Assembly (NCBI GenBank): GCA_014584395.1
Contig: JACTMY010000004.1
Span: 124,001-188,000 of the forward strand
Source: Planctomycetota bacterium
Lineage (GTDB): Bacteria > Planctomycetota > Planctomycetia > Gemmatales > HRBIN36
Length of the DNA stretch: 64,000 nt
Reading direction: 5' to 3'
The position numbers were made by a program, and so were the translations under genes. Under the pieces are notes generated by a model. That model saw nothing but the letters and a program-made list of their open reading frames with translations. It searched no databases and was not told the origin of the DNA. Numbering within the stretch: the first letter of the stretch is position 1; each line of letters begins with the position of its first letter. This document shows positions 20,786 through 34,668 of the stretch, in pieces.

Positions 20786-21217
20786 ATGAAGCGAATGAAC
20801 ATGGCGATGAACAACGTTACCCAGGAAGACTTGCAAGGCTACTTGGATGAAGCCCTTAGCGAAGCCGATTTGGCCCGCGTGGAACAGGCGCTGCGCGATT
20901 CGCCGTCCTTGCAACAGATTTTAAAGCGTCTTTTGCAAGAGCGGGATCGAGGCGAACATAGTTTGGGAGCCATCTGGCGGCGTGCTCGGCTCAGTTGCCC
21001 GACGCGGGATCAATGGGGCAGTTACCTATTGGGCGTCTTGGACGAGGATTTGGCGGATTACATGCAGTTTCATTTAGAGATGATTCATTGTCCCTACTGC
21101 CAAGCCAACCTCTTGGACCTGCAAAGCCGGCGGCGCGAATCCCCCAAGCAAGTGGATCAAAGGCGGCACAAGTTGTTCACTTCGAGCGTGGGGACCTTTC
21201 GCTCCGTCCACAAATGA
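20786..21217 (+). CDS. Putative zinc-finger anti-sigma-like protein
   Basis: The 143-residue protein starts with a helical segment (EDLQGYLDEALSEADLARVEQALRDSPSLQQILKRLLQ), resembling the N-terminal domain of planctomycete anti-sigma proteins. It later has HLEMIHCPYCQANL, an H-x5-C-x2-C arrangement like zinc-binding anti-sigma (ZAS) proteins. The tail is basic and no membrane helix is present, so it would be soluble. It ends 101 bp before the kinase gene on the same strand, and pairs of this kind are common in Gemmata-like genomes. It may control the kinase or a sigma factor; this is inference. Starts at codons 5 or 7 are also possible; no clear ribosome site decides. Confidence 0.7.
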   Translation: MKRMNMAMNNVTQEDLQGYLDEALSEADLARVEQALRDSPSLQQILKRLLQERDRGEHSLGAIWRRARLSCPTRDQWGSYLLGVLDEDLADYMQFHLEMIHCPYCQANLLDLQSRRRESPKQVDQRRHKLFTSSVGTFRSVHK

Positions 21218-21318: not shown

Positions 21319-24075
21319 ATGAGTCGAGGTCCATCCGGTCAATCGTCACCCCAAGACGGGGCCGCTTCCACGGTTCGGGAACCGGGAGCCTCCCCCTTGC
21401 CTGGCTATCGCTTGCTGGAGCCGTTGGGCCGAGGCGGGTTTGGCGAAGTCTGGAAGTGCGAAGCGCCCGGCGGCATCCTCAAAGCCATCAAGTTCATCAA
21501 AGGCAGCGTTAGCAGCGCCACGACCGGCGTGCAGGCGGCCCAGGAATACAACGCTCTCAAGAAAATCGTCGGCATTCGCCATCCCTTTTTGCTGTCCATG
21601 GATCGCATCGAGGAGGTGGAACACGAACTGCTGATCGTCATGGAACTGGCCGATCAGACCCTTTTCGATTTGTTCGAAGCCTATCGCCGAGCGGGCTACG
21701 CGGGCATTCCCCGGGATGAATTGATCGGCTACATCAGCGAGGCTGCCGAAGCCCTCGATCTGATGAACGGGCAGTACAATTTACAGCACCTGGACATCAA
21801 GCCCGGGAACTTGTTCCTGGTGGCCAATCACGTGAAAGTGGCCGATTTTGGCCTCGTGGGCGACCTGGGCCAATTGTCCACCTCGGAAGCCGATGGCGTC
21901 ATCGAGCCGATCGGGATCACGCCCCTGTACGTGGCCCCGGAAGTGCTTCATGGCAAGCCCAGCGCCTTTAGCGATCAATACAGCCTGGCCATCGTCTATC
22001 AGGAATTGCTCACCGGCACGCTGCCCTTCATGGGTAAAAACAGCCGCTCGCTGGCCATGCAGCACGTCATGGCCGATCCTGCCTTGGAGGCCTTGCCCGT
22101 CAAGGATGCGCCGATCATTGGCCGGGCCTTGAGCAAAGAACCAACCAAGCGGTTTCCCTCATGCCTGGCCTTTGTGCAAGCGCTCATCACTGGCGAAGTC
22201 AGCCCGTCGGCCGCGAAGGGCAGCATGACCCGCAGCATGTCGATCATCCGCGTCCCCGGCATGGAAACCAAGGGCGAGATCAATCTCCTGTCCGAGGAAA
22301 CCAAGCCCAGCGGCGCGATCACGACGCCAGTGTCGGGTCAACTGCACCGCACGACTGAGCGGTTCCAGGACGTCCCGCGCAACACCGCTTTGAATCCTCC
22401 CTCGTCGCTGCTCGGCGAGGAAGAAGTGCTGCCCGGCTATCAATACCTGGACCTGGTCGGCCGCAGCCCCTTGGGCGAATTATGGAAGGTCAAAGCACCC
22501 GACCAGAAGAAGAAGTTGGCCAAGATCGTCACCGGGTTCGAAGGGCAGGACACGAAAGAGGAAGCCCGCGCCGTGGCCATGCTCGGTTCCATCCGGCATC
22601 AAGGCATCATGCCCCATGAAGTGTCCTACAAAGGGCCTGGCCGCTTGGCGTTGATTTACGAAGTGGTCGAGGAAACCCTGTGGGATCGTTTCCAGTCCTA
22701 TCGCTCCCAACGCTTGCAAGGCATTCCGCGGCACGAGTTGATCAACTACATCAAGGAAGCAGCGGAGACTCTGGACGATCTGCGCGAACGGCTCGAATTG
22801 CTGCACTTGGCGCTCAATCCGCGGACCATGATGCTGCCGGAGAACGATGCGCTGCGCTTGGCCGATTTTGGCCTGGCCCATTTGCTCTGGTTTCAGGCGG
22901 GGCAGCCGGTCGCTCCCCTCAATCAGCGCTACGCCGCGCCGGAACTGGCGGAGAACCAGATCGCGCGCAGCACCGATCAGTACAGTCTGGCGGTGATCTA
23001 TCAGGAGCTACTGACGGGCGTCCACCCGTTCAAGAAGTATCTCTCGGTTCGACCCGGCGGCATGACCCGCGGCAACCGCGGCCCCGCCAAGGTGATCCAG
23101 CCCGAATTGGACCCCTTGCCCGCGCCGGATCGGCCGATAATCATGCAAGCTCTGCATCCCGACCCCGAACAGCGGTTCCAAAGCTGCCTCGAATTCGTCG
23201 AGCTGCTCGAAATGCAAGACGCCGCGATGGAGGATCAGCGCCGGACGCGCATGTCCCTCTCGCAGATGGAGGTTTCCAGCGCTACCTGGTTTGATCTGCC
23301 CCAGGAAGGCGAAACCGACACGCAAGCCGCGATTCGCGTGGTGAACGACCTGGTGCAGTCGCTGGCGGCCCATTGGCCCATCGAAACGCACGGAGGCATG
23401 CGCTACATCCACCGGGCTGGGGAAACGATCATCCACCGCTGCGGCGCCATGCTTCCCGCGGGGTTGGCGCAGGCCAAATTGGAAGGTTTTCGGCAATCCT
23501 GCGGCGCCCAACTGGTCCGAGGGGATGATCAATTTTACGTCTTCAAGATCAACAAGCCGCGCAGCTTCTGGCAAACCGTTCGCGGCGTCCAGCCCGGCTT
23601 GGAAGTCAGCTTGCGTCTGCTCCATCCCACCTCCAAGGCCGCCATGCTCACGGAAGTCACGGTGCAGATCACGCCGATCAACTGCGAACCGGAAGAAGGG
23701 GCGGAACTGCTCAAGAACCTGGGGCCGAAAATCATTGAACAAGTGCGCACCTATTTACAAGCCACTCAGGAGCGGCACAACAACGAACGCTACGACTACA
23801 GCCTGCCTTTCGCCATTCAGCCCGTCTACCCTCGAGGCGAGATGGGTGAACTGATCCAATGCCAGGGCAAGGACATTTCCGTGGGCGGCATGAGCTTTTA
23901 CTCGCCGATCGAACTGCCCACGCCGCAGATGGTGATCCACCTTATGGGACTGCAATCCCAGGTCAGCACTCCTGTGCCGGCTTGCGTCGTGCGCACCTCG
24001 CCGTGCCAGGACAGCGGTTGGTATGAAGTGGGCATCAAGTTCTTGTTCGATGGCGTGGTGGGCCATTACGAATAA
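21319..24075 (+). CDS. Ser/Thr kinase, pseudokinase and PilZ fusion protein
   Basis: The 918-residue protein has three parts. Kinase 1 (about 27-290) looks active: glycine loop LGRGGFGEVW, Lys58, HLDIKPGN with catalytic Asp159, DFG at 176-178 and APE at 206-208. Kinase 2 (about 371-632) repeats the fold, but the catalytic loop is HLALNPRTM (Asp replaced by Ala498, Lys by Asn500) and the glycine loop is GRSPLGELW; DFG (516-518) remains. It should be a pseudokinase. The C-terminal end (about 819-912) looks like a PilZ domain: Arg819 and Arg824, DISVGGMSF (852-860) and YEVGIKF, matching the c-di-GMP-binding pattern. A middle region (660-815) is not recognised. No membrane helix is present, so it is probably cytoplasmic. 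An anti-sigma-like gene lies just upstream. Confidence 0.88.
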   Translation: MSRGPSGQSSPQDGAASTVREPGASPLPGYRLLEPLGRGGFGEVWKCEAPGGILKAIKFIKGSVSSATTGVQAAQEYNALKKIVGIRHPFLLSMDRIEEVEHELLIVMELADQTLFDLFEAYRRAGYAGIPRDELIGYISEAAEALDLMNGQYNLQHLDIKPGNLFLVANHVKVADFGLVGDLGQLSTSEADGVIEPIGITPLYVAPEVLHGKPSAFSDQYSLAIVYQELLTGTLPFMGKNSRSLAMQHVMADPALEALPVKDAPIIGRALSKEPTKRFPSCLAFVQALITGEVSPSAAKGSMTRSMSIIRVPGMETKGEINLLSEETKPSGAITTPVSGQLHRTTERFQDVPRNTALNPPSSLLGEEEVLPGYQYLDLVGRSPLGELWKVKAPDQKKKLAKIVTGFEGQDTKEEARAVAMLGSIRHQGIMPHEVSYKGPGRLALIYEVVEETLWDRFQSYRSQRLQGIPRHELINYIKEAAETLDDLRERLELLHLALNPRTMMLPENDALRLADFGLAHLLWFQAGQPVAPLNQRYAAPELAENQIARSTDQYSLAVIYQELLTGVHPFKKYLSVRPGGMTRGNRGPAKVIQPELDPLPAPDRPIIMQALHPDPEQRFQSCLEFVELLEMQDAAMEDQRRTRMSLSQMEVSSATWFDLPQEGETDTQAAIRVVNDLVQSLAAHWPIETHGGMRYIHRAGETIIHRCGAMLPAGLAQAKLEGFRQSCGAQLVRGDDQFYVFKINKPRSFWQTVRGVQPGLEVSLRLLHPTSKAAMLTEVTVQITPINCEPEEGAELLKNLGPKIIEQVRTYLQATQERHNNERYDYSLPFAIQPVYPRGEMGELIQCQGKDISVGGMSFYSPIELPTPQMVIHLMGLQSQVSTPVPACVVRTSPCQDSGWYEVGIKFLFDGVVGHYE

Positions 24076-26261: not shown

Positions 26262-26960
26262 ATGCCGTTGGCTTTCATAGGTTCGCTTGCCGCCGATCAG
26301 TCGGCGGCGTTGATCTTCTTGTGCGTGGTGCTGATCATCGAGGCGTGGATTGATCTCACGCAATTGCGCGTGCCCAACCGGATCACCTATCCCATGATCC
26401 TTGCGGGGTGGGCGTATGCGTTTGGCCGGGCCTTCGTGGTGGCGCCGAGCGATGGACCGCCGATAGAAATGTACCTTTGGCCGTTCGGTCCGGAATTCAC
26501 GCTGAGCCAAACTCCATTGGCCGAGGGATTGCTTGGCTTGTGGTATTCCTTCAAGCTCACGGTGCTGGGCTTCCTACTGCTGATCTTCATGTACGCCATC
26601 GGCGGCATGGGGGCAGGGGACGTGAAGATGCAGATGGGATTCGGCGCTTGGGTGGCGCCGATCTTCGGCTATAGCCATGGCCTCATGATCGTGTTCTGGG
26701 GATGGATTTTTGCCGTGCTCATTGGCGGCGTGATCTCCGCCATCATGATCTGGTGGCGGGGCGACTTCCGACAAAATCGCCAAAATGTCAAGGACATCGT
26801 CGGCGATCTCGTGTCGGGCAAGTCCGTCGGGCAGATCGCGGACCGCGCCGCGGAGCGCAAGCCCAGAATGCACTTGCTGCCCTATGGCGTGCCGCTGTGC
26901 CTGGGCTTTATCGGTTACATTGTGCTCGATCATTTGCAGATGTGGCCCAAGCTATGGTAA
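26262..26960 (+). CDS. cpaA: Prepilin peptidase of the Tad system (A24 family)
   Basis: The 232-residue membrane protein has the two catalytic aspartates of aspartic prepilin peptidases: Asp31 in EAWIDLTQLRVPN and Asp120 in GGMGAGDVKMQ. Several hydrophobic helices surround them. It lacks the N-terminal methyltransferase zinc domain of type IV PilD, matching the shorter TadV/CpaA group. It would cleave prepilin and pseudopilin leader peptides at the cytoplasmic membrane face. The end (about 170-215) has an extra soluble loop (DIVGDLVSGKSVGQIADRAAERKP) between helices, not typical of small TadV. It is the first gene of the Tad locus. Confidence 0.92.
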   Translation: MPLAFIGSLAADQSAALIFLCVVLIIEAWIDLTQLRVPNRITYPMILAGWAYAFGRAFVVAPSDGPPIEMYLWPFGPEFTLSQTPLAEGLLGLWYSFKLTVLGFLLLIFMYAIGGMGAGDVKMQMGFGAWVAPIFGYSHGLMIVFWGWIFAVLIGGVISAIMIWWRGDFRQNRQNVKDIVGDLVSGKSVGQIADRAAERKPRMHLLPYGVPLCLGFIGYIVLDHLQMWPKLW

Positions 26961-27293
26961 TCTGGAACAGATTGGATGGCGGGGAGGGCTGTTAGGCAGA
27001 TTCTCCAAGCTTCCTGAAAGCACCAGGTTCGCTCATTTGCGGCAAGATTGGAAAATCACATACAAAGCAAATATTCCTCATAGGCGCAAAAGTTGAAGTA
27101 GGCAGCACTATTTAGTCGAAATAAGCGGCAAGGGATGGTAGTCGTAATGGATCGGATCAGGTTACACTGAGTCGTTTGTGTGTCTTGAACCAGTGCAAGC
27201 CGCGTGAGGCTTGCTTGCGGAATTGAATCATGAAGTCTTCAGCGATCGCCCCCGGATACACCCTGAATCACATCTCTTAGTGGAGGACAAACC
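26961..27293 (+). other. Intergenic region before cpaB, no gene seen
   Basis: 333 bp between cpaA and cpaB. I see no convincing ORF (only a 16-codon frame at 27230) and no pilin-like coding. A weak promoter candidate is TTGCGG at 27038 followed by TACAAA after 18 bp. GGAGG at 27283-27287 is the cpaB ribosome site. Confidence 0.5.
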
Positions 27294-28292
27294 ATGCAAT
27301 CGCGGACGTTAACGTTAATGGTCATCGCTCTTGCCTGCGGGTTGGGGGCGGCTTATCTCGCATGGAAATACGCGGGCGGCGGTGCGGATAAAAACGTCGT
27401 CATGAAGAAGGTCCTGGTGCCCAAGGAAGACATCAAGGGTCTAACTCGGCTGAACATCCAGGAATTGTTCCACGAAAAGGAAGTCAAGGAATCGAGTCTG
27501 CGCGATGTTAACGACGTCGTCACCACCTTTGACGAAGTCAAGGACATGCGCAACAAGGATTTCACCTTGTCCAAGGAAATGCCCATCTACAAGAGCGATC
27601 TGGTGAAGTACAGGGAATCGAGCATCATTTCGCGATTGAAGGAAGGGGAACGGGCCGTGACCGTGCCCGTTGACGCGGCCATGGCGGGCAGCGGCCACAT
27701 CGAGATCGGCTCGCGCGTGGATATCATCACGCAAATTCCCACCACCGGGGCGGATCAAAAAGTGCGCTTCAAGGTCGTGTTCCAAAACATTGAAGTCCTG
27801 GGCGTCAACACGGATTCAGCTCCTTCACCGGATGGACAACCCAAGCCAGCCAATACGCTGACGCTGCGCATGAAGAACGAAGATGCCCCGGCCATGACCG
27901 CTTATCGGACGCGCGGTCAGATCTTCCACGTGGTTCTGCGGAATCCCGGCGATGACAAAATCTACGACTATAAGGAATTCGTGCTGGGCGATGAAAAGAC
28001 GGGCGCGGGCGAAAGCGATCAACCCAAGGAAGTCGCCATCACCGACCCTCCGGTACAAGCACCGCCTCCGGCTCCGGTGGTTCAACCATCGGTTCCCACG
28101 CCCGTGGAAACCAAGCCGGAAGTGACACCGGTGGAAACGAAGCCCGCCGTCGTGGAAATCGACAATGAACCGAAGTGGATCACGACGCGCATCGTTGGCG
28201 ACGGCCCCACGGTGAAGACGATCAAGACTGAGATCAAGAAGGAAGAAAAGAAGCCAGAAAAGAGCGAGGAACCCGCGGGTTCATCGCACTAA
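27294..28292 (+). CDS. cpaB: Flp pilus assembly protein CpaB (RcpC)
   Basis: The 332-residue protein starts with a membrane anchor (LTLMVIALACGLGAAYLAWKYA), then a SAF-type domain (VLVPKEDIKGLTRLNIQELF ... NKDFTLSKEMPIYKSDLV). The RcpC/CpaB core follows, with EGERAVTVPVDAAMAGSGHIEIGSRVDIITQIP and VVFQNIEVLGVNTD. The C-terminal 80 residues are Pro/Val/Lys-rich and low complexity, probably a flexible periplasmic arm. CpaB works with the secretin in building the outer-membrane channel for the Tad pilus. Start set by GGAGG 6 bases upstream. The secretin gene follows after 268 bp. Confidence 0.93.
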   Translation: MQSRTLTLMVIALACGLGAAYLAWKYAGGGADKNVVMKKVLVPKEDIKGLTRLNIQELFHEKEVKESSLRDVNDVVTTFDEVKDMRNKDFTLSKEMPIYKSDLVKYRESSIISRLKEGERAVTVPVDAAMAGSGHIEIGSRVDIITQIPTTGADQKVRFKVVFQNIEVLGVNTDSAPSPDGQPKPANTLTLRMKNEDAPAMTAYRTRGQIFHVVLRNPGDDKIYDYKEFVLGDEKTGAGESDQPKEVAITDPPVQAPPPAPVVQPSVPTPVETKPEVTPVETKPAVVEIDNEPKWITTRIVGDGPTVKTIKTEIKKEEKKPEKSEEPAGSSH

Positions 28293-28316
28293 CGTCCAGG
28301 CCCGCGCAAGGAAAAG

Positions 28317-28352
28317 ACAGAGCGAGCGGATCGCTGTCGTCTCGCTCTGTCG
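28317..28352 (+). other. Perfect 11-bp inverted repeat between cpaB and cpaC
   Basis: GACAGAGCGAG (28317-28327) and CTCGCTCTGTC (28342-28352) are perfect complements across a 14-base loop, 25 bp after the cpaB stop. There is no T-run. It may stabilise the 3' end of the cpaB message or attenuate reading into the secretin gene. Confidence 0.45.
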
Positions 28353-28560
28353 TCGAGGTTCGAGTGTTCGTCGATGGCTTAAGTTTGGGTGGATCTTCGT
28401 AAACAAAAGCCGCGTGTCCGCGCACTTTGGGGGAAACGGGTTGTTCAAAATCGCGGCGCATCATGGTCGATGCCGCCGCGATGGAACAGACGACTCGTGC
28501 GGTTACGGCAGCACCCCGGGACCAACCCGTCGGACCGTCATTTGAAGAAGAGGTGAAAGG

Positions 28561-30525
28561 ATGCACGCTCTCAGGACATGGATGAAAGGCAAGCACCGGC
28601 TGATGGGCGCCGGTCTCGTGACCGCGCTTTTGTCTTGCCCTGTCGCCTGGACGCAGCCGCCGGACATGGCGGGGGGGCCGCCGCAAGCCACCGATACGGG
28701 CGGCGCCACGGGACAGGCCTTGCGGGCTGATATCTCGTGCCAAATCAACGAAACGATCACCCTGCGCCACAGCACGGGATTGCCTCTTAAGGAAATCCTC
28801 GTCTCGCGCGAGGGCGTCATCGGGGACATCGTCAAAGTCCAACCGGACGATGCCAGCCTGTGGAAAGCCACGGGCAAGACCGTCGGCGTGACCCAGGTCA
28901 CCCTGGTCACCACGGATGGGCAAAGCGAAATCAAGCTCATCCGCGTCGACCCCGACTTGAACTATATCCGCTCCTTGCTGGCCAAGAACTTCCCCACCGC
29001 CAATTTAACGTTGATTCCAGGCGGCCAACAAGGCTCCCTGATCGTCGGCGGCTGGTTGGAATCTCCCGAAGACGTTCAGCCCATCCTGACCTATCTTCGC
29101 GGCTTCGTGCCCGGCAATAACCCAAATCTGATCACCAATGCTATGCGGGTTTCGGGCGTGCAGCAAGTGAAGCTGGAAGTCTGCGTGGCTCGCGTGCAAC
29201 GCACTGATTTCCGCAACATGGGCTTCAGCTTCTTCCGCCTTGATCAAGAAAAAGCGTTGCTTAGCTCCATTGGTGGAACGCCGCTCTCGCTGCAAGAAGG
29301 CATCCTGCGTCCGCCTGGCGTTCTGGCCACCAATCCGAGCAGCGTGATTCAATTCGTGCTGACGGAACCGAATTCCGCGTTTGTCGGCTTCCTGCAAGCC
29401 TTGAAGCAAGAAGGCGTGGGCAAAATCTTGGCCCAGCCCTCGATCACGACCATGTCCGGCCGCGAAGCGGCCTTCCTGGTCGGTGGTGAAGTGCCTGCCG
29501 TGGTCGCTGGCGGCGGCGCTCAGGGCGGTCAAGGCGGCGTGGGCGGCGGCGGCGGCGCGATTCAATTCCGCCCCTTCGGCACCCGCGTCAGCTTCCTGCC
29601 CGTCGTGCTGGGCGATGGCCGCATCCGCTTGCAAGTGCAGGCCGAAGTGAGCCAGGTTGCGGGCACCGTGACGCAAGCCTTCTTCACGGCCCCCTCCTTC
29701 GTCATCAGCCAGGTGCAGAGCACCATCGAGATGGAAAACAAGCAGAGCTTCATCCTCGGCGGCTTGCTGCAGACGGAACTCAACGGCACGACCAGCAAAT
29801 TGCCAGTCCTTGGCGAATTGCCCTTCGTCGGCGCTGCATTCCGATCCGTGGAACTGCGCGAGATCGAAACCGAGCTCGTCGTGATGGTCACGGTGTCTTT
29901 GGTGGATGCCTTGGATAGCCATCAGAAGCCATGCATGTTGCCCGGCCAGGAAACCCGCAAGGCCACGGACTTTGAACTGTTCCTCGAAGGCATCATGGAA
30001 GCACCGCGCGGGCCTCGTGAACTGTTCCCGAATAACAAGTACGTGCCTGCTCATAAGTTGGCTCCTCCTTACGGCGTGCCGATGGGGGATGGCTGCAACG
30101 GCAATGGTTGGGGTTCGAGTTGCGGCAAAGTCGGCTGCACGACGGGCTGCACCAGTTGCACACCGTGCGGCAGCGCTCCTGTGCAAACGGCTCCCGCGCC
30201 GATGCCCGCTCCGCAGCAAAGCGTGAGCCGAGCCGCGGCCAAGGATGACCCCATGATGACGCCCATAGTCAAGGATGTGAAGCCGATGCCGATGAACCGG
30301 GCGGAAACAAAACCCATGCCGGTGCGGCAGCCGGAAGTCAAGCCGCCGGTCATGCCGGCCAGCAGCGAGGCCATGGTGATCGTTGAAGCGCCCAAGGCTC
30401 CCGTGGTGCCTGCCGCGGCGCCGCCGGCCCCAACGGCTCCGAGTTTGCCGCCGCTCCCGGCCGACGCGAAACGCGAAGGTTCCAGCACCAGCGAGGTGCC
30501 GCCTTTGCCGGAAATTCCGAAGTAA
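28561..30525 (+). CDS. cpaC: Tad secretin CpaC (RcpA)
   Basis: The 654-residue protein has a signal peptide (about 1-31, LLSCPVAW), an N-terminal pilus-assembly domain (ETITLRHSTGLPLKEILVSREGVIGDIVKVQ), a BON-like segment (IPGGQQGSLIVGGWLESPEDVQPILTYL) and the secretin core (ILAQPSITTMSGREAAFLVGGEVP through NKQSFILGGLLQTE and LGELPFVGAAFRS). It would form the outer-membrane channel of the Tad system. A Gly-rich loop (VVAGGGAQGGQGGVGGGGG) sits inside the core, and the tail is long, Pro-rich and includes a Cys cluster (CGKVGCTTGCTSCTPCGS). The ribosome site GAGGTGAAAGG precedes the ATG. A second secretin lies at 47.5 kb. Confidence 0.93.
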   Translation: MHALRTWMKGKHRLMGAGLVTALLSCPVAWTQPPDMAGGPPQATDTGGATGQALRADISCQINETITLRHSTGLPLKEILVSREGVIGDIVKVQPDDASLWKATGKTVGVTQVTLVTTDGQSEIKLIRVDPDLNYIRSLLAKNFPTANLTLIPGGQQGSLIVGGWLESPEDVQPILTYLRGFVPGNNPNLITNAMRVSGVQQVKLEVCVARVQRTDFRNMGFSFFRLDQEKALLSSIGGTPLSLQEGILRPPGVLATNPSSVIQFVLTEPNSAFVGFLQALKQEGVGKILAQPSITTMSGREAAFLVGGEVPAVVAGGGAQGGQGGVGGGGGAIQFRPFGTRVSFLPVVLGDGRIRLQVQAEVSQVAGTVTQAFFTAPSFVISQVQSTIEMENKQSFILGGLLQTELNGTTSKLPVLGELPFVGAAFRSVELREIETELVVMVTVSLVDALDSHQKPCMLPGQETRKATDFELFLEGIMEAPRGPRELFPNNKYVPAHKLAPPYGVPMGDGCNGNGWGSSCGKVGCTTGCTSCTPCGSAPVQTAPAPMPAPQQSVSRAAAKDDPMMTPIVKDVKPMPMNRAETKPMPVRQPEVKPPVMPASSEAMVIVEAPKAPVVPAAAPPAPTAPSLPPLPADAKREGSSTSEVPPLPEIPK

Positions 30526-30834
30526 TCTTCCCCAAGCGGGGAAATCAAGGACCGAATCGTTGCCAAGGATGGGCCAAGCCGAGTCGTTACGATCGGCTTG
30601 GCTTTTCCATTCTGGAGGAAGAATTCTGCGACAGAGCCGTTGCTCAGACTGATGATCCTGTTCATAATGGATGGGGTTGTTCTCGCCGTTTCCCGCCATG
30701 CGGACTCGCGGGCGCGTCTGTTGGCGTGCCGGTAGCAACCGCCGCTTCAAGGGGGAAATGGAGTTTGGGAAAGTGTTCGAAGAGAGTGGGCTGATACCGA
30801 TACGACATTCATCGCAACCAACCGGTACGACATC
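30526..30834 (+). other. Intergenic region between cpaC and cpaE
   Basis: 309 bp with a terminator in its first third (30573-30606). The rest holds no ORF I can support and no ribosome site close to the cpaE ATG. A promoter for cpaE is expected here but none is clear by eye. Confidence 0.5.
30573..30606 (+). terminator. Intrinsic terminator after cpaC
   Basis: GCCAAGCCGA (30573-30582) pairs perfectly with TCGGCTTGGC (30593-30602); the 10-base loop can itself close by TCG/CGA. TTTTCC follows. It lies 47 bp after the secretin stop and would split the Tad genes into at least two transcripts. Confidence 0.75.
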
Positions 30835-32064
30835 ATGATAGAAGCGCGACGATTAGCCATCTGTGATCCGTCCAATGCGACGCGCGAGCCGCTGCGCAAC
30901 TTGCTCCTGGGCATGGACGGCGTATCCCTGGAAGCGGAATCCAATCGCTACGAATATTTCAGCGACGTGGTGGAACAATATCAGCCTGACACCGCGATTA
31001 TCTGCCTGGATACTGATCCGACGCGCGGCTTGCAACTGATCGCTCAATTGGCGCGCAGCGCCCCGCACATGGCGATTCTGGCCGTGAGTTCGCGCTCCGA
31101 TGGTCCGTTCATCTTGCAGACCCTGCGCACGGGAGCGCGCGAGTTTTTGCCCCAGCCGATCCAATTCGAAGAATTGCAAGCCGCCATCGACCGGGTGCGG
31201 ACGATGGTTCCCTCGCCGCCCGGCACGGAAATCAACGCCGCGGCGCCCGTGATGCCGCGGGTCTCCAGCCTGGCAACCTCGAAGATCATCGCCATCGCCG
31301 GATCGCGGGGCGGCATTGGCTGCACCAGCATCGGCGTGAACCTGGCCTGCTGCTTGGCCCAGGACAAGGAAAACCGGGTGGTCTATGTCGACCTCGATCT
31401 GGCCCTCGGCGATTCCGACGTTACGCTCGACATCATTCCCAGCTACACGCTGGCCGACATCGCCATGAACATTCAGGAGATCGACCCCAAATTCCTGAAG
31501 GGAGCGCTCAGCCGGCATGAATCGGGGCTGTATCTGCTGCCCCATCCCATGCAACTCGACGACGTCGGCCTGATCCATGAAGAACATTTGCAGCGGTTGC
31601 TGGCCTTGCTGCGCACCGGGCATACGCACATTATCGTAGATTTGAGCAAGAGTTTCCGGCCGACGGATTTCACGGCCCTGCAAATGGCCGACATCATTCT
31701 CTTGGTCGCCCAACTGGAACTCACCAGCATCCGCAACTGCGTGCGGCTGCTTCAATCCATGGGCAACGTCGAGGGGCTCTCAGAGAAAATTTATCTGCTC
31801 ATGAACCGCGTCGGCGCGGACGACCAGGACATCAGCATCCAACGCGCCGAGGAAACAATTAGCCGCAGGGTCTTTTTCGTGATTCCCAACGACAGCAAGG
31901 CGATGCTCAGTTCCCGCAACGTCGGAAAACCATTGATTCAATTTGCCCCGAAGTCGAAAGCATGCCAAGCTTTCATACAACTGGCGAACGTGTTGTCCGG
32001 GAAGGAAGAGATGCCTTCCAACGTCTATGTGAAGACCAAGAAGAAATCCGGTTGGTTTAGCTAA
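30835..32064 (+). CDS. cpaE: Tad locus ATPase-like protein CpaE/TadZ
   Basis: The 409-residue protein has an N-terminal receiver-like domain (about 5-122, with IICLDTD at the usual phospho-site) and a MinD/ParA-type ATPase domain from about 150. The receiver lacks the conserved Lys (LPQP instead of LxKP), so phosphorylation is doubtful. The deviant Walker A reads SRGGIGCTS (157-165): both lysines usual in KGGxGKS are missing, as in several TadZ proteins. Asp residues of the switch region remain (VVYVDLDLALGDSDVTLDI). TadZ localises the Tad machine at the inner membrane or pole. The start has no clear ribosome site. cpaF follows after 82 bp. Confidence 0.9.
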   Translation: MIEARRLAICDPSNATREPLRNLLLGMDGVSLEAESNRYEYFSDVVEQYQPDTAIICLDTDPTRGLQLIAQLARSAPHMAILAVSSRSDGPFILQTLRTGAREFLPQPIQFEELQAAIDRVRTMVPSPPGTEINAAAPVMPRVSSLATSKIIAIAGSRGGIGCTSIGVNLACCLAQDKENRVVYVDLDLALGDSDVTLDIIPSYTLADIAMNIQEIDPKFLKGALSRHESGLYLLPHPMQLDDVGLIHEEHLQRLLALLRTGHTHIIVDLSKSFRPTDFTALQMADIILLVAQLELTSIRNCVRLLQSMGNVEGLSEKIYLLMNRVGADDQDISIQRAEETISRRVFFVIPNDSKAMLSSRNVGKPLIQFAPKSKACQAFIQLANVLSGKEEMPSNVYVKTKKKSGWFS

Positions 32065-32146
32065 GGAAATGGCTATAGGGGCCGACTCCTTGGGGGAGCG
32101 GTTCAAGGCTTGAAACCGAGGATGCACTAGCGAAAGAAGGCCGACC

Positions 32147-33589
32147 ATGTCCAAGTTTCCATCGCGTGGAGGCATGCCTCCCAGTCATTTGCCGGGTCTG
32201 ACGTCGACCTCCTCCCCCTCCCTGCCCCCCGGGCGGACTTCGGGAGGCCTTCCCAACTTGCCCTCCCGCAGCATCAACACCAGCGGCACCTCCTTGGCCG
32301 CCGGCACCGCGAATAAAAGTTTTGACGACCTCAAACGCATCATTCACGGCAAGCTGGTCGAGAAACTCGATCTGTCCAAAGTCAGCGATTTGCAAGGCGA
32401 TGTGCTGCGCCGCGAAATCCGCCTGGTCGTTGAACGCTTGTGCGACACGGAAAATCCCTTACTTAACCGCATGGAGCGCGAGCGCCTCATCGACGAAGTG
32501 CTCGATGAAACCTTCGGCTTCGGGCCGCTCGAAATTCTGCTCAAGGACCCGACCATCAGCGATATCATGATCAACGGCCCGCATCGCATCTACGTTGAGC
32601 GCCGCGGCAAGACCGAGAAGACCGACGTCAAGTTCCGCGACAATCAACACCTGTTGCAAATCATCGACCGCATCGTCTCGAAGGTGGGCCGGCGCGTCGA
32701 CGAAACCACGCCCATGGCCGACGCCCGTTTGCCCGACGGCTCGCGCGTGAACGTCATCATTCCCCCCTTGGCCCTGGACGGCCCAGCGATGTCCATTCGC
32801 CGCTTTGGCTCGGTCCCCCTTAAACTCGAGGATTTGCTCAACTTCAACGCCTTCACCAAGGAAATGGCAATCCTCATGGAAGCCGCCATCAAGGCTCGGC
32901 TCAACATCATCATCAGCGGCGGCACCGGCAGCGGTAAGACGACTCTGCTCAACACCCTCTCCAGCTTCATCCCCGGCCACGAGCGCATCATCACCATCGA
33001 GGACGCCGCGGAACTGCAGCTACAGCAGGAGCACGTGGTCCGGCTCGAAACGCGGCCGCCCAACATCGAGGGCAAAGGGCAAATCACCTGCCGCGACCTG
33101 GTGCGCAACGCCTTGCGCATGCGGCCCGAACGCATCATCATCGGCGAATGCCGCGGCGGCGAAGCGCTCGACATGCTCCAGGCCATGAACACCGGCCACG
33201 AAGGCTCGATGACCACGCTGCACGCCAATAGCCCCCGCGACGCCTTGGCCCGCTTGGAAACCATGGTCATGATGGCGGGGTTCGAAATGCCGGTGAAAGC
33301 CATGCGGCAGCAAATCTCCTCGGCGGTGGACTTGATCATTCAAACCAATCGCCTCCAGGGAGGGCCGCGCAAAATCACCAGTGTGTCGGAAATCGTTGGC
33401 ATGGAACAGGAAATCATCGTCATGCAGGAAGTCTTCCGCTTCAAGCAAATGGGCATTGATCAAAACGGCCGCGCCTTCGGCCAGTTCGAATGCAGCGGCG
33501 TTCGACCCACGTTCTTGCCCAAGCTGGAAGCTGCGGGAATTAAGTTGCCATCGAATTTGTTCCAGGAGCGCATTCTACTTCGCGATTAA
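32147..33589 (+). CDS. cpaF: Tad pilus secretion ATPase CpaF/TadA
   Basis: The 480-residue protein is a type II/IV secretion ATPase of the CpaF group. After a Ser/Pro/Gly-rich leader of about 55 residues come the N-terminal helical domain ([12 protein letters not shown] ... [25 protein letters not shown]), the Walker [10 protein letters not shown] (258-266), the Asp box region ([12 protein letters not shown]), Walker B ([20 protein letters not shown]) and the His box ([14 protein letters not shown]). It powers pilin assembly at the cytoplasmic face with TadB and TadC. AAGAAGG precedes the ATG. Length is within the family range. Confidence 0.96.
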
Positions 33590-33681
33590 AACACCACGAA
33601 GAGGCGCGACGCCGCGGCTGCGGGAACCAGGACCGGCCAGCGTCGGCCACGCGATCCGCCTCGGACCCCAGGGGAGCCATC

Positions 33682-34668
33682 ATGCTCAATCTCCAAACAT
33701 TGACCGACCCGTTGATTTTGATTCCCTTCCTTGCCTTTGCCTCGGCCGTGGCGTTGGTCTTGGCCGTGGGCTTCATCGCCAAGGGCAGGGTAAGCAGCGC
33801 CGAGAGCCGGCTCGAGATCTTCGCGCGCAAAAGCAGCAAGAATACCTCCTCCAGCCAATCCATCGAAATCTGGAAAGATGCGATGGAGCTCAACAAGAAG
33901 TCGCTGGTGGAGCAGATCGCCCCGAACATTCCCTCGCTGGACCGCATCTTCGAGCAAGCGGAGGTGAACATCCGGCCGAGCGCCGTGATGGGCTTGTCCG
34001 CCTTGCTGTTCCTCGTGGCTTCTATCGCCAGCTACGCCGTGGGCGCGCCCGTGGCCGTGGCCTTGATCCCGGGCTTGATCTTCGGCATCGCTCCCTGGTG
34101 GTGGGTGTTTTACATGCGCAAGAAGCGGCTGGATAAATTCCAGGCGCAAATGCCCGACGCGATGGAATTGCTGGCCCGCGCCTTGCGCGCCGGTCAAAGC
34201 TTCCAGGCAGGCTTGCACATCATTGCCGAGGAAATGCCGCCGCCCATCGCCACGGAATTTGGCCGCGCTTATGAAGAGCAAAACTTGGGCGTTACCGTTG
34301 AAGACGCCCTTAAGGCCATGTGCGAACGCGTGCCCAACCTCGATCTGAAATTCTTCGTCACCAGCGTGCTCATTCAGCGTCAAACCGGCGGCGACTTGTC
34401 GGAAATTCTCGACAAGATCGGCTACGTCATCCGCGAACGGTTCAAGATTCTCGGCATGGTCCAAGCCCTTACCGGCGAAGGTCGTTTGAGCGGCAACGTT
34501 TTGATCGCATTGCCCTTCGTGATGTTGCTCGCGGTCATGCACATCAATTACGACTACGTCAAGGTGCTCTGGACCACGGAAACGGGCCAGCGGTGGTGCG
34601 TGTACGGTCTCATCATGCAGCTCATGGGAGCCTACGTCATTCGCCGTATCGTGAACATCAAGGTGTAA
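33682..34668 (+). CDS. tadB: Tad inner-membrane platform protein TadB
   Basis: The 328-residue protein has an N-terminal helix, a pair of helices near 95-130 (VMGLSALLFLVASIASYAVG, VALIPGLIFGIAPWWWVFYM), a T2SSF domain (about 145-260, DAMELLARALRAGQSFQAGLHIIAEEMP ... RQTGGDLSEILDKI) and two C-terminal helices. This is the GspF/PilC-like platform with which CpaF works. GGGGAG lies 6 bases upstream of the ATG. The order cpaF-tadB-tadC is the conserved core of Tad loci. Confidence 0.93.
   Translation: MLNLQTLTDPLILIPFLAFASAVALVLAVGFIAKGRVSSAESRLEIFARKSSKNTSSSQSIEIWKDAMELNKKSLVEQIAPNIPSLDRIFEQAEVNIRPSAVMGLSALLFLVASIASYAVGAPVAVALIPGLIFGIAPWWWVFYMRKKRLDKFQAQMPDAMELLARALRAGQSFQAGLHIIAEEMPPPIATEFGRAYEEQNLGVTVEDALKAMCERVPNLDLKFFVTSVLIQRQTGGDLSEILDKIGYVIRERFKILGMVQALTGEGRLSGNVLIALPFVMLLAVMHINYDYVKVLWTTETGQRWCVYGLIMQLMGAYVIRRIVNIKV

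Follow-up and report, generated by a model that had tools for sequence, protein, structure and literature searches.

A family of Gemmatales proteins joining a Ser/Thr kinase, a pseudokinase, a domain X and a PilZ domain as a candidate link between c-di-GMP and phosphorylation

An open reading frame in a 64,000-nucleotide stretch of a Planctomycetota genome (Gemmatales, HRBIN36; assembly GCA_014584395.1, contig JACTMY010000004.1, positions 124,001 to 188,000; this whole stretch is hereafter the window) raises the question of why a single polypeptide should carry an apparently active kinase, a kinase stripped of its catalytic residues and a C-terminus that looks like a c-di-GMP receptor. A preliminary description had proposed that, if all three parts work, the protein could link c-di-GMP binding to Ser/Thr phosphorylation with the pseudokinase as regulator. 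The frame translates into 918 aa with no internal stop, and Pfam matches Pkinase in two stretches of the product (1.4e-49). As described below, this protein is one member of a conserved planctomycete family and not an isolated oddity. The features of the gene are collected in Table 1.

Table 1. Features of the kinase gene, in window coordinates, with the evidence for each.
Feature	Coordinates	Strand	Evidence
918-aa protein, kinase–pseudokinase–X–PilZ	21319..24075	+	ORF translation, Pfam
Kinase 1 (aa ~25-292), intact	21391..22194	+	Pfam, residue check
Linker (aa 293-369), predicted disordered (pLDDT about 20-30)	22195..22425	+	AlphaFold2 model
Kinase 2, pseudokinase (aa 371-632)	22429..23214	+	Pfam, residue check
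A498-L499-N500, lost catalytic Asp and Lys	22810..22818	+	residue check; Asp gone in 24/24 proteins of this layout
Domain X (aa ~690-813), beta-alpha-beta4-alpha, KA1-like predicted fold	23386..23757	+	model, Foldseek, profile comparison
PilZ domain (aa ~818-910)	23770..24048	+	Pfam, AlphaFold2, Foldseek
R819-H820-N-N-E-R824, shifted RxxxR c-di-GMP motif	23773..23790	+	alignment, residue check
D852-I-S854-V-G-G857, intact [DN]xSxxG	23872..23889	+	alignment, residue check

Kinase 1 combines the Pkinase profile with the Lys, Glu, HxD, Asn and DFG residues that characterize an active Ser/Thr kinase. Its catalytic set is complete (G-loop 37-44, K58, E76, H157-L-D159-I-K161, N164 and D176-F-G), and Lys58, Asp159 and DFG are found exactly where the preliminary description had numbered them. 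From these intact residues we infer that kinase 1 is active. The domain reads HLD and not HRD and is therefore of the non-RD type; control of non-RD kinases is usually exerted by means other than phosphorylation of the activation loop. In kinase 2 the corresponding loop is H496-L-A498-L-N500-P-R-T503, and the translation confirms the replacement of the catalytic Asp by Ala498 and of the Lys by Asn500 that had been reported earlier, with the Asn also changed, to T503. K402, E415 and D516-F-G are kept. A kinase fold from which the HRD Asp has been lost is a pseudokinase, and kinase 2 is accordingly predicted to be catalytically dead; unusual chemistry, as in SelO, is possible. Structure prediction was confined to the window and three further loci, with shallow alignments, and because the full-length model of the window protein is of low confidence (pTM 0.36), no contact between domains is visible in it.

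A search for relatives, followed by order-wide searches of 102 Gemmatales genomes in which the loci were fetched and their domains assigned, places this protein in a larger set. Full-length orthologues share 36-57% identity with it. Domain X, a stretch of about 125 aa between the pseudokinase and the PilZ domain that was absent from the preliminary description, is carried by 86 distinct proteins of the order. Among these, 24 (from 18 genomes and 15 genera) have the full kinase–pseudokinase–X–PilZ layout, 41 are active kinase–X–PilZ proteins, 11 are pseudokinase–X–PilZ cassettes whose ORF encodes no active kinase (two, L091 and L095, extend to the edge of their contig and are possibly incomplete) and 2 are kinase–X proteins lacking PilZ; the remainder are truncated, split or without a recognised domain. 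Kinases with a canonical HRD, a C-terminal X and no PilZ are encoded at L209 (2131-3435) and L210 (1659-2990), and at L084 (G046:C1) a gene of the full layout is apparently split into ORFs of 593 and 361 aa, by a frameshift or an assembly error.

In all 24 proteins of the full layout the first kinase reads HLD with its Asp present and the second has lost the Asp (the second domain scores weakly as a kinase in three of them, L201, L204 and L206), and the reversed order never occurs. Relatives with an intact HRD in the second kinase, which the preliminary description had named as the finding that would speak against it, are thus lacking from this set. Since the division between kinase and pseudokinase is kept in every case, it has been maintained by selection and does not reflect decay of the gene. 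An artefact or a single decayed gene is ruled out as the source of the layout by the existence of a 24-member family. The catalytic Asp is also missing from the 11 cassettes without kinase 1. In the family to which the window's genome belongs, a second one of the order beside Gemmataceae, each of the seven genomes has one such cassette, an open frame of 547-602 aa (L085, on a 318-kb contig, in the window's own genome), which makes pseudokinase–X–PilZ a module in its own right. The X–PilZ module was not found outside Gemmatales among the listed matches from 392 genomes of the phylum and 298 of the class (the class sample includes Gemmatales); the listed matches outside the order have either PilZ alone or X alone.

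The pseudokinase itself is variable in its chemistry. At the position of the catalytic Asp the 24 second domains have A, S, G, M, C, N, E or L, the VAIK Lys is present in 9 of them, and roughly half retain the Asp of DFG. With nucleotide-binding residues this variable among members, an ATP-sensing step shared by all of them cannot be asserted; ATP binding by kinase 2 of the window protein is possible, not as a family rule. The core of the fold is largely conserved (HLxLxP, APE and DQYSLA). A maximum-likelihood tree built from 63 kinase domains groups every second kinase, together with a few stand-alone cassettes, in one clade (99/96), and a 100/100 branch in it divides all pseudokinases from all active kinases. 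The simplest reading of this tree is that the catalytic Asp was probably lost once, with long retention of the pseudokinase thereafter.

The preliminary description had made its proposal depend beforehand on a PilZ domain at residues 815-918, and the domain is there. PilZ (PF07238) matches at aa 819-909 with 28.5 bits against a gathering score of 22.5 (2.1e-6; 2e-7 when the C-terminal 250 aa are searched alone), AlphaFold2 predicts a six-stranded beta barrel, and Foldseek finds this barrel to resemble the solved c-di-GMP-binding PilZ proteins MrkH, PlzA, YcgR, VCA0042 and Alg44. A profile match above the gathering score together with the beta-barrel fold assigns the domain to the PilZ family. 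The ligand motifs reported with it stand only in part: of the PilZ-type Arg residues and the DISVGGMSF segment, the DxSxxG motif is intact (D852, S854 and G857), whereas the window protein has no canonical RxxxR, as His occupies the first Arg position (H820) and R819 lies one position off. In the family as a whole, RxxxR is present in 43 of 46 aligned members and both motifs are complete in 41; the other five lack the Ser (two), lack both motifs (one) or have the first Arg shifted (two, namely the window protein and its closest relative L065, each with DxSxxG intact). As 41 of 46 members carry both motifs, the family is a strong candidate for c-di-GMP binding.

For the window protein H820 makes the link to c-di-GMP weaker, and binding may be altered or lost. 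It may also be that its PilZ domain no longer binds c-di-GMP and serves for protein interaction only, an explanation which concerns the window protein alone and is compatible with c-di-GMP control of the other members. There is a precedent in Myxococcus xanthus Pkn1 (MXAN_1467), a Ser/Thr kinase–PilZ protein whose PilZ domain is predicted not to bind c-di-GMP and which is nevertheless needed for development (PMC8316039). The R819/H820 shift in the window protein and its closest relative is in keeping with such a loss, whereas the presence of R819, R824 and the entire DxSxxG motif, and the strict conservation that is the trend of the family, argue against it. On balance we consider loss of binding in this protein a serious possibility that falls somewhat short of being probable.

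Domain X has no match in Pfam or among PDB sequences. Its model, of moderate confidence (pLDDT about 60-86), gives target TM-scores of 0.52-0.60 with 5wi2, 4yom and 1v5s in Foldseek, the KA1 structures matched being those of Chk1, SAD and MARK3 kinases, and Bet v 1-like folds match as well. No sequence-profile link between X and KA1 was found, with the KA1 profile (PF02149) matching none of 15 domain X members at E up to 10. A relationship emerges with a domain found at the end of HD-GYP–PAS–GGDEF proteins (diguanylate cyclases) in other Planctomycetia; X aligns to this domain in hhalign with 97.7% probability and a score of 71, the best of 100 column-shuffled controls reaching 19. The GGDEF signature lies in the same reading frame in 14 of the 15 proteins of the tail-domain alignment, and a search with the tail domain as query gave matches in 50 of the 79 genomes surrounding one carrier. 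This profile evidence makes X a homologue of the domain that ends planctomycete HD-GYP–PAS–GGDEF proteins, and X seems to be a domain of c-di-GMP signalling that has not been described before. Proteins of this X-ended HD-GYP–PAS–GGDEF family are widespread in planctomycetes (L132, where X is C-terminal in a 761-aa ORF, L133 and L212-L230).

In the genome of the window (87% complete) a single GGDEF protein was detected, whose N-terminus is receiver-like and whose GGEEF is intact; no EAL domain was found, and there are four HD_5 (HD-GYP-type) domains and four detected PilZ domains, two of which sit in X–PilZ cassettes. The kinase gene is preceded, about 100 bp upstream, by a gene for a 143-aa zf-HC2 (anti-sigma-type zinc finger) protein (20786-21217), with which it may be co-transcribed, and followed by an inositol-monophosphatase family gene and, from 2.2 kb downstream, a Tad/Flp pilus cluster (26262-34668) comprising a prepilin peptidase, CpaB/RcpC, a secretin, a receiver-domain CpaE-like protein, a CpaF ATPase and a TadB-type T2SSF protein. 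A functional link to the Tad/Flp pilus was considered and dropped, as the window's genes do not stand beside the relatives examined; with no conserved neighbourhood, the surroundings of the gene do not suggest a substrate. Outside Gemmatales, a GAF-HD-PilZ gene overlaps a gene for an FHA-kinase (L118, 442-1854 and 1824-3344; overlapping kinase genes also at L108 and L116), a further physical link between c-di-GMP-type and Ser/Thr kinase signalling.

Taken as a family, the link to c-di-GMP is well supported by sequence because 41 of 46 members have the complete motif, X is common to GGDEF proteins and the genome encodes a GGDEF protein with GGEEF intact. The connection between c-di-GMP and Ser/Thr phosphorylation drawn in the preliminary description thus gains from a real layout and from its family, and is weakened in the very protein for which it was proposed. 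The explanation we favor, to which we would assign about even chances, is that of a cytoplasmic Ser/Thr kinase which its own C-terminal half controls allosterically, as a c-di-GMP read-out. The PilZ domain would sense c-di-GMP, pseudokinase–X–PilZ would work as a regulatory cassette for kinase 1, and X together with the dead kinase would either transmit a change of conformation to kinase 1 or provide docking sites for its partners. Regulation of kinase 1 by kinase 2 is plausible as a candidate role. We infer that c-di-GMP is bound, that the pseudokinase relays the signal and which way control runs. A more specific version, in which Gemmatales would have a bacterial counterpart of tandem kinase–pseudokinase proteins, the dead kinase relaying c-di-GMP binding by PilZ to the Ser/Thr kinase and X being a new planctomycete adaptor placed on the enzymes that make or degrade c-di-GMP as well as on the kinases that read it, is tentative and seems rather doubtful in full.

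The main rival to allosteric control is that the C-terminal cassette serves for localisation or as a scaffold, placing the kinase at the membrane, at a pole or in a diguanylate cyclase complex with no gating by c-di-GMP, and X being a docking domain common to cyclases and effectors. The likeness of the X model to KA1 domains, which contribute to membrane binding in MARK/SAD kinases (PMC4686854), would fit this role, as would the sharing of X with GGDEF proteins, the occurrence of pseudokinase–X–PilZ without an active kinase and the two kinase–X proteins that lack PilZ. A pure scaffold, however, would have no need of the c-di-GMP motif that most members present, and the KA1 likeness has no counterpart in the sequence profiles, so that we judge this explanation possible, if on the unlikely side. 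That the second kinase is instead a functionless, decaying duplicate, as its lost catalytic residues and the variable VAIK and DFG residues of the family might suggest, is highly improbable given that it is kept in the same order in 15 genera from one origin, has much of its fold core intact and stands also without kinase 1.

Several known systems invite comparison. In the JAK/TYK2 proteins of eukaryotes a dead and an active kinase domain likewise stand in tandem on one chain; these are tyrosine kinases in which the pseudokinase precedes the active kinase and PilZ is absent, and the comparison is one of analogy only. A drug acting on the pseudokinase of TYK2 controls the active domain, according to a 2025 review (PMC12599244). 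The same review presents the bacterial families ActPs1-3, GLW, CP1, DYD and DLHK, which resemble kinase 2 as Ser/Thr-type pseudokinases with degraded catalytic motifs, and in it PilZ, c-di-GMP and Planctomycetes go unmentioned, while the sections covered here present no tandem with an active kinase. YcgR, MrkH and PlzA share a PilZ barrel with a c-di-GMP motif placed after another domain, but they have no kinase, and sequence similarity to the window protein was not found outside PilZ. The KA1 domains of MARK, SAD and Chk1 are, like X, C-terminal and kinase-associated, and may have the predicted topology of X, but differ in that X is followed by PilZ. Pkn1 unites a Ser/Thr kinase and PilZ as the window protein does, but its published description names these two domains alone, with no pseudokinase (PMC8316039). 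Within the open-access literature, Pkn1 and the pseudokinase review were the only descriptions found that bear on kinase–PilZ proteins or planctomycete pseudokinases, and none was found of the kinase–pseudokinase–X–PilZ layout. The earlier remark that no protein of this kind had been described thus needs qualification for the kinase–PilZ fusion, and holds in that search for the pseudokinase and X in between.

Signalling by c-di-GMP and by Ser/Thr phosphorylation have mostly been studied separately, and the family described here suggests a direct link between them. Within one order, a conserved c-di-GMP motif occurs beside an intact kinase, with or without a conserved pseudokinase, in contrast to Pkn1, the one published kinase–PilZ fusion found, with its predicted lack of binding. 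The kinase–X–PilZ, kinase–pseudokinase–X–PilZ and pseudokinase–X–PilZ proteins are matched natural variants with which the role of a bacterial pseudokinase may be probed, and domain X, common to both, connects the kinases of Gemmatales with GGDEF proteins of the same class, the Planctomycetia.
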